In this document: positions 1,659 to 2,602 of the stretch, in pieces
Layout: every line of letters begins with the position of its first letter
Numbering within the stretch: position 1 is the stretch's first letter
Assembly: GCA_947168725.1 (NCBI GenBank)
Contig: CAMVNA010000006.1
Coordinates: forward strand, 1-64,000
Direction of reading: 5' to 3'
Length of the DNA stretch: 64,000 bases
DNA from: an uncultured bacterium
GTDB lineage: Bacteria > Patescibacteriota > Gracilibacteria > Absconditabacterales > Absconditicoccaceae
Notes under the pieces: model-generated
The model's input: the letters and a program-made list of their open reading frames with translations, nothing else
Databases searched by the model: none
Told to the model about the DNA's origin: nothing
Program-made: the position numbers and the translations under genes

Positions 1659-1761
1659 TAATTCTCATCAATACAAAATTTAAGAAAGACCTTGAATTTT
1701 AAAGCTAAAAACATATACTCAAAAACATAGAAAAAAATAACTTTTCTCATTCATAATATAA

Positions 1762-1836
1762 AACAATAAGAAGTTGAACTAGAGATCGTGAGATTTTTTT
1801 TCAGCACGAAGGGTGTGGTATTCCACACTCTTTTTC
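1762..1836 (+). ncRNA. Small-RNA unit A of a five-unit array
   Basis: No ORF is visible. A TAATAT -10-like box lies at 1754-1759. Hairpin 1 pairs TCGTG (1786-1790) with CACGA (1805-1809) around a T-rich loop containing GAGATTTTT. Hairpin 2 is a terminator, GGGTGTGG-TATT-CCACACTC (1811-1830), followed by T5. The unit closely resembles unit C in both hairpins. Function unknown; the small-RNA reading is inference from the promoter, structure and terminator pattern. Confidence 0.5.
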
Positions 1837-1904
1837 TTTGAATGCTTGATGTTTAGTAGAAAAAATATATAATAAACAAGCGATAGTTTATTTTTTTCAT
1901 TTCT

Positions 1905-1996
1905 TTTAATAATATTCTGTCGAGAGATAGCTTATTATTGTATCTTTCGGAGTGACAACACTCCGCTGAAAGGGCTTGTATATCGAGCCCTTTTTC
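1905..1996 (+). ncRNA. Small-RNA unit B of a five-unit array
   Basis: Three consecutive stems are visible: GAGAGATA (1922-1929) with TATCTTTC (1941-1948), CGGAGTG-ACAA-CACTCCG (1948-1965), and a terminator GGGCTTG-TATAT-CGAGCCC (1972-1990) followed by T5. A TATAATA box lies upstream at about 1867. It shares the GTCGAGAG core with unit E and the terminator type with unit D. No coding potential seen. Confidence 0.5.
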
Positions 1997-2069
1997 CTAA
2001 AAAGAATTGAAAATATTCTATAATTCCATATATACAAACATATATACTCATTTTTTGCAATTGATGATA

Positions 2070-2147
2070 AAGCACAAAACTATTGAGCAGAAGTCGTGAG
2101 ATTTTTTCTCAATGCTAAGAGTGTGGTATTTCCACACTCTTTTTTTG
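2070..2147 (+). ncRNA. Small-RNA unit C of a five-unit array
   Basis: ATTGAG (2082-2087) pairs with CTCAAT (2108-2113) around a loop holding GTCGTGAGATTTTT, nearly the same loop as unit A. The terminator AGAGTGTGG/CCACACTCT (2118-2140) runs into T7. Upstream, TATAAT occurs at about 2019. A and C look like duplicates. Confidence 0.5.
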
Positions 2148-2244
2148 GAGCTTAGCTATTGATTTTTTGTGGATATTTGCTATACATACCGTAGCAGATG
2201 GATAAACTTTTTCATTGAGACTTTTCATACGTACCTGCTTTTGT

Positions 2245-2310
2245 TATCTTTTTTGAGGAAATCGTCGAGATGACGGTAAACCCAAAGGGGCTTGTTTCAA
2301 GCCCTTTTTC
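2245..2310 (+). ncRNA. Small-RNA unit D of a five-unit array
   Basis: A small hairpin CGTC-GAGAT-GACG (2263-2275) is followed by a perfect terminator GGGCTTG-TTT-CAAGCCC (2288-2304) and T5. Terminator type and TCGAGA core match unit B, so A-B and C-D may be a duplicated pair. Confidence 0.45.
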
Positions 2311-2394
2311 TTAAAAAGTATTGTTTTTTAAGAAAAAATAATTAAATTAAAGAGTGGAAAGTAACTTTTTGTTCTTTTCTAAGTTTGTCATTGT

Positions 2395-2490
2395 AATTAT
2401 GTGAGATTGTGTTTTGTCGAGAGGCAAATCATCAGTCGTAGTAGCGTCACAATGCTACTAAAAGGAGCTTATATGTAAGCTCCTTTTTTC
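2395..2490 (+). ncRNA. Small-RNA unit E of a five-unit array
   Basis: Three stems: TTTGTC-GAGA-GGCAAA (2413-2428, with a GNRA-type tetraloop), TAGTAGC/GCTACTA (2439-2460), and a perfect 8-bp terminator GGAGCTTA-TATG-TAAGCTCC (2464-2483) followed by T6. No ORF. Carries the GTCGAGAG core of unit B. The remaining 2491-2602 holds a possible sixth weak hairpin (about 2554-2573) before nusA and nothing else recognised. Confidence 0.5.
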
Positions 2491-2602
2491 ATAATTCATT
2501 TATTTAAGAATAAAAAACTCTTGCAATAAAAATCTGAATCTATACAAAATTATTGGGGCAGATTTTCAGTCCCTTTTTCTTTATTTGGTATTGCTTAAAC
2601 TT

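Follow-up and report, generated by a model that had tools for sequence, protein, structure and literature searches.

Sibling small RNAs such as LhrC1-5 of Listeria and the csRNAs of Streptococcus are encoded by several related genes, each under a promoter of its own and some arranged in tandem (PMC5880928, PMC4211561), and in LhrC three CU-rich target-binding regions are common to all five copies (PMC5880928). A comparable arrangement is predicted in the window analyzed here, a 64,000-nucleotide stretch of DNA from an uncultured member of the Absconditicoccaceae in whose genome (G000) TGA is read as glycine. Between a gene for an SLH-like surface protein (stop codon at about 1603, own terminator at 1619-1657) and nusA (ATG at 2603) lie five units, A to E, all on the + strand, and each follows one plan: promoter (TTGNNN-16 nt-TANNNN), variable leader, hairpin tipped by C(GNGA or GNGAT)G, and intrinsic terminator, with an extra second hairpin in units B and E (Table 1). 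The units are about 100-135 nt long, and their leaders, of 30-60 nt, are different in every unit. The distance from unit to unit, given as 95-175 bases in the initial annotation of this DNA, is corrected here to about 134-174 nt.

In size and terminator the LhrC/csRNA-type siblings are similar to A-E, and the likeness extends to tandem placement, mutual homology and, as predicted, a promoter and intrinsic terminator for each copy. In contrast to those siblings, A-E hold the hairpin constant while the leader varies, lack a common target-binding region or C-rich seed, and belong to a family that has gained and lost units among close relatives. Tandem sibling sRNAs are thus the known kind (PMC4211561, PMC5880928), the points of difference being the conserved part and the turnover. 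In our literature search no account of regulation by small RNAs came up for these reduced-genome bacteria with TGA as glycine, and the data suggest a fast-changing regulator set that has not been described before. As the initial annotation had supposed, no known RNA family covers the units: no Rfam 15 model matches above its gathering score in the window, and a permissive search of 1600-2620 gave only matches far below gathering scores.

Table 1. Predicted features of the array between the surface-protein gene and nusA (positions in the window)
Feature	Positions	Strand	Remark
Promoter of unit A, TTGAAT-16-TATACT	1692..1719	+	spacing is that of the genome's promoters
Leader of unit A (start inferred)	1726..1773	+	no similarity to other leaders
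Hairpin of unit A, apex TC-GTGA-GA at 1786-1793	1774..1805	+	
Intrinsic terminator of unit A	1808..1836	+	
Promoter of unit B, TTGATG-16-TATAAT	1846..1873	+	
Leader of unit B	1880..1906	+	
Hairpin of unit B, apex TC-GAGA-GA	1907..1940	+	
Second hairpin of unit B, ACAA loop	1948..1965	+	
Intrinsic terminator of unit B	1968..1996	+	
Promoter of unit C, TTGAAA-16-TATATA; alternative -10 TATACT at about 2043	2007..2034	+	missed by strict pattern
Leader of unit C	2049..2080	+	
Hairpin of unit C, apex TC-GTGA-GA	2081..2114	+	
Intrinsic terminator of unit C	2117..2146	+	
Promoter of unit D, TTGATT-16-TATACA	2159..2186	+	
Leader of unit D	2194..2250	+	
Hairpin of unit D, apex TC-GAGAT-GA (pentaloop)	2251..2287	+	weakest fold among the five
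Intrinsic terminator of unit D	2284..2311	+	
Promoter of unit E, TTGTTT-16-TAAATT	2321..2348	+	
Leader of unit E	2355..2404	+	2377-2392 antisense to HxlR-type regulator start codon (lead only)
Hairpin of unit E, apex TC-GAGA-GG	2405..2436	+	
Second hairpin of unit E	2439..2460	+	
Intrinsic terminator of unit E	2461..2490	+	
Whole variable block	1659..2508	strand-neutral	no nucleotide similarity to syntenic G004 block; flanks align at 80-88%

All five small-RNA-like units described by the initial annotation are present where it placed them, fold far more stably than dinucleotide shuffles (z of -5.4, -7.3, -6.4, -3.0 and -6.0 for A to E) and end in intrinsic terminators. In the first hairpin an outer and an inner stem, separated by an internal loop, carry a tip UC-GNGA-GA (GNGAT in D), with the tips at 1786, 1920, 2094, 2265 and 2417; in unit D alone the minimum-energy fold lacks the expected hairpin, which forms once its closing pair is imposed. 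A core TCGWGAGA had been proposed as common to all, of which TCGWGA indeed occurs in all five whereas the last GA does not (D has TCGAGAT, E has TCGAGAGG). In the fold this core caps the first hairpin: a GNGA tetraloop (in D, GNGAT) on a C-G closing pair. The units were also said to hold no open reading frame, and none of at least 50 amino acids fits inside a unit; the one + strand frame, at 2007-2279, runs through both a terminator and a promoter. A scan of both strands of the 1.05 Mb genome (2.1 Mb in all) for a TC-GNRA(T)-GR hairpin of -8 kcal/mol or lower with a terminator within 110 nt returned five matches, exactly A-E and no others. Because the pattern was derived from A-E themselves, this means that the genome holds no further copies and is not a blind P value.

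The TATAAT-like boxes that had been seen upstream of several units turned out to be -10 elements, each belonging to a complete promoter whose spacer has the genome's usual length of 16 nt. The pattern TTGNNN-N16-TANNNT occurs in 35.6% of gene upstream regions versus 4.6% on the opposite strand. (This spacer is unusually strict genome-wide, neighboring spacings reaching 7-14% as against 35.6% for N16.) Five of nine distinct units carry the strict pattern, as against an average of 1.1 and never more than 4 over 300 shuffles. Genome-wide, a slightly wider pattern picks out 30 orphan promoter-to-terminator units, among them tRNA genes and all of A-E. Since each of A-E has an organism-type promoter and a terminator, they are very probably five independent small RNA genes, so far as can be judged from sequence.

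Covariation among the units and homologues in related genomes had both been named beforehand as what this reading depends on, and both were found. Across the 14 first hairpins, covariation is strong (score 0.66 versus 0.25 in shuffles, with slid controls at or below 0.20), and the alignment holds 51 double-changed cells versus 19.5 in shuffles. The C(GNGA/T)G tip is present in 14/14 units as compared with 2/313 and 1/317 terminators. A covariance model of the hairpin led in its first round to units in two related genomes, G004 and G005, and in its second to units in a third, G003. At the surface-gene locus G000 has five units, G004 three, including a tandem pair of nearly identical copies, each about 193 bp long, and G005 one, which adjoins dnaG and faces it from the other strand. 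The alignment of G000 with G004 at this locus runs to 1658 and resumes at 2509, and the blocks between are without nucleotide similarity. At mscL, from which the units are divergent, G000 lacks them, G003 and G004 have one each and G005 has three in tandem; the flanks are 77-88% identical and the site in G000 is cleanly empty. One more unit of G004 adjoins serS. By comparison, orphan RNA units outside the family (tRNAs, a 147-nt structured RNA and a 55-nt RNA) mostly show 77-100% identity when G000 is set against G004.

Taken together, these comparisons place A-E in what appears to be a family in four genomes of one genus whose cassettes are gained, lost and tandemly duplicated, and we consider the cassette-like gain and loss highly likely. 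This goes beyond the initial annotation, in that the family is spread over several loci with a variable number of copies and is tied neither to nusA nor to the surface gene; its view of the units as tandem small RNAs is itself supported by the organism-type promoters, the terminators, the covariation and the homologous arrays in relatives. An obligate tie to the surface gene was rejected, as units also lie at serS and mscL and none lies in the scanned flanks of paralogous surface genes. Wide conservation was likewise rejected: the matches to the hairpin from other genera proved to be ordinary GNRA-looped terminators (L172-L174) or to fall within coding sequence. A multi-locus RNA family that keeps only its tip and fold, while leaders and copy number shift between close relatives, would be an unusual case of sRNA evolution, and A-E give concrete transcripts to seek in metatranscriptomes.

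To separate constant from variable parts, six paralogous pairs were compared part by part (A-C, B-D, G4a-G4c, K1-K2, K1-K3 and K2-K3). Leaders are at shuffle level in all six (z of -0.8 to 1.9). The hairpin is homologous in every pair but B-D (z of 3.7-7.9), the terminator in A-C, B-D, G4a-G4c and K2-K3 (z of 5.2-11.9), and the promoter clearly so in G4a-G4c, K2-K3 and K1-K3 (z of 5.5-7.2); promoter similarity is weak in A-C and K1-K2 (2.6-2.7) and not significant in B-D (1.7). The kinship of A and C that had been noted from the letters, in a U-rich loop and a GTGTGG terminator, is a true homology of hairpin and terminator. The proposed duplication of an A-B pair stands for A-C, homologous in both parts, and falls short for B-D, which are related in the terminator only. 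Among A-E as a whole, structure and tip are common to all, and sequence is shared by A-C and partly by B-D. A random-looking leader joined to a constant hairpin suggests that the leader carries specificity and that the hairpin is a handle, although random leaders are equally expected from relaxed selection or from a leader without function.

The explanation we favor, with a probability of about 0.42, is that the units are sibling sRNAs that act by base-pairing through a leader that varies, and that share a constant hairpin as a handle. Under it A-E would act in trans as Hfq-independent siblings, the leader being the part that pairs with mRNAs and the hairpin a handle and stability element, either bound by a protein or needing none; tandem duplication followed by leader change would yield new specificities. 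They would differ from Hfq- or ProQ-dependent sRNAs, as no match to Hfq, ProQ or KhpA/B was found in their own genome, which is 91% complete, so that the absence may reflect missing data (control genomes were positive). In a simple scan, most genes of this genome were without a Shine-Dalgarno sequence.

Two lines of analysis bear on possible targets. First, energies of leader duplexes with translation starts were no better than those of shuffled leaders or gene-internal controls, and a C-rich leader of G004 gave no convincing pairing site at translation starts. No conserved target region can be named, because the orthologous arrays have no sequence in common. Second, when pairing is kept in register with start codons, the CATs in the leaders of A-E outperform 1000 control intergenic CATs at true gene starts (P of 0.003-0.006 in G000). 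This anti-start-codon pairing is suggestive in G000 but does not repeat in G004 (P of 0.82-0.89), and the test was devised after the leaders had been seen; we set it aside as a general rule. The leader of unit E contains 16 nt perfectly antisense to a site spanning the start codon of a gene for an HxlR-type regulator (G000 C2:136832), a gene that lies upstream of MacA/MacB-like genes. We treat this pairing as a lead, not a result.

The same constant tip could instead titrate an RNA-binding protein, copy number setting the dose and leaders being left to drift. Decoy RNAs of the CsrB/RsmY type carry repeated hairpins with a constant loop, many in one transcript, with GGA in the loop. The A-E family likewise repeats hairpins with a constant loop, and that nothing but tip and fold is conserved across genomes, that the mscL-locus units of G003, G004 and G005 have two such tips, that copies are many and variable in number and that the leaders gave no target signal are all as a sponge would have it. 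Unlike the decoys, however, A-E are predicted to be separate transcripts and their loop is GNGA, the GGA of CsrA sites appearing (as GGGA) in only two units, both of G004. There is also no candidate protein, and a leader of 30-60 nt and a terminator for every tip would be superfluous. Moreover, the decamer GUCGUGAGAC occurs in 23S rRNA too, so that a sponge would compete with an abundant rRNA; we consider this explanation unlikely.

The 23S copy, which the hairpin model finds in five genomes, lies in helix H93, and a near copy lies in 16S helix h36. These rRNA GUGA hairpins have the same apex as the units, GUC-GUGA-GAC/U, but only this short apex is shared. As two different rRNA helices carry it, the apex is probably a generic stable cap. 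Mimicry of h36 was rejected, since the model matches H93 too and so is not specific.

A bolder variant of the favored base-pairing model is that the array is a copy-variable cluster of guide-like RNA cassettes, with constant promoter, hypervariable guide leader and a constant GNGA handle plus terminator. The cassettes would diversify more quickly than the genome around them, in the absence of the usual sRNA chaperones and with a protein partner reading the handle. This we hold to be doubtful.

Redundant terminators insulating nusA from the surface gene, with promoters arising by chance, would account for six strong terminators between two genes in a cluster that is unique in the genome, the array being the single place where at least four of the 313 strong terminators fall on one strand within 800 nt. 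But an organism-type promoter in every unit would defeat insulation, a constant upstream hairpin is unnecessary for termination, single units adjoin serS, mscL and dnaG, and no such units occur at the paralogous surface-gene loci scanned, all of which makes this account improbable. Equally improbable is a mobile DNA element whose hairpin, as folded DNA, serves a recombinase or Y1 transposase, with transcription incidental. Integron attC sites and REP hairpins show cassette-like gain and loss, variable stem sequence and conserved base boxes, and the A-E family resembles them in its gain and loss with variable stems, its clean presence or absence at mscL and its dispersal over several loci. It differs in being conserved at the tip rather than in base boxes and in retaining promoters and terminators; furthermore, the one empty site read showed no target-site duplication or terminal repeat, and stems that change wholly yet keep pairing, with a conserved loop and G-U pairs, point to RNA. 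That the units are cis-acting leaders or attenuators of a downstream gene (nusA here, serS in G004), as a hairpin followed by a terminator upstream of both might suggest, is very improbable given that the G005 unit faces dnaG on the opposite strand, the mscL unit is divergent from mscL, nusA has its own promoter-like sequence after the array, and the nusA 5' leader (2518-2599) is conserved in G003 and G005, where the array before nusA is absent. Two further candidates were rejected, a hairpin of the DGR type (considered for its GNRA loop; terminators and promoters speak against it, as judged on architecture) and a phage or plasmid origin, for which phage and plasmid collections held no similarity.

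Several other RNA-like elements were observed. The stretch at 2518-2599 of the window, a promoter-like sequence and leader of nusA, is 87-93% conserved in three relatives, and a small hairpin with a T run at about 2555-2579 within it is a possible attenuator. A possible sixth member in G000 lies after recA (L131:2007-2039, in C2) and consists of a lone promoter and a AATTATTTAATC-GTGA-GATTAGAATAATT hairpin with a weak terminator. In G004 two tandem orphan units lie at C1:31111 and 31379; the second has a leader in common with a C13 array unit (86% of 29 nt) and a different hairpin. The 147-nt structured RNA, with promoter and terminator, lies at L126:4400-4552 (G000 C2) and also at about C2:23959; it is 98% identical in G004, where it has a paralogue, and its long closing stem recalls 6S RNA, though it has no Rfam match. 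Two 55-nt units, G000 C3:127289 (+) and C3:82109 (-), start with CGTGTGGTAGAACCTTATAGAA, have different terminators and are both 100% conserved in G004. Finally, a 96-nt orphan unit at G000 C2:114797 (ATATATGCCCC...AAGGGGACA...) is 83% identical over 69 nt in G004.
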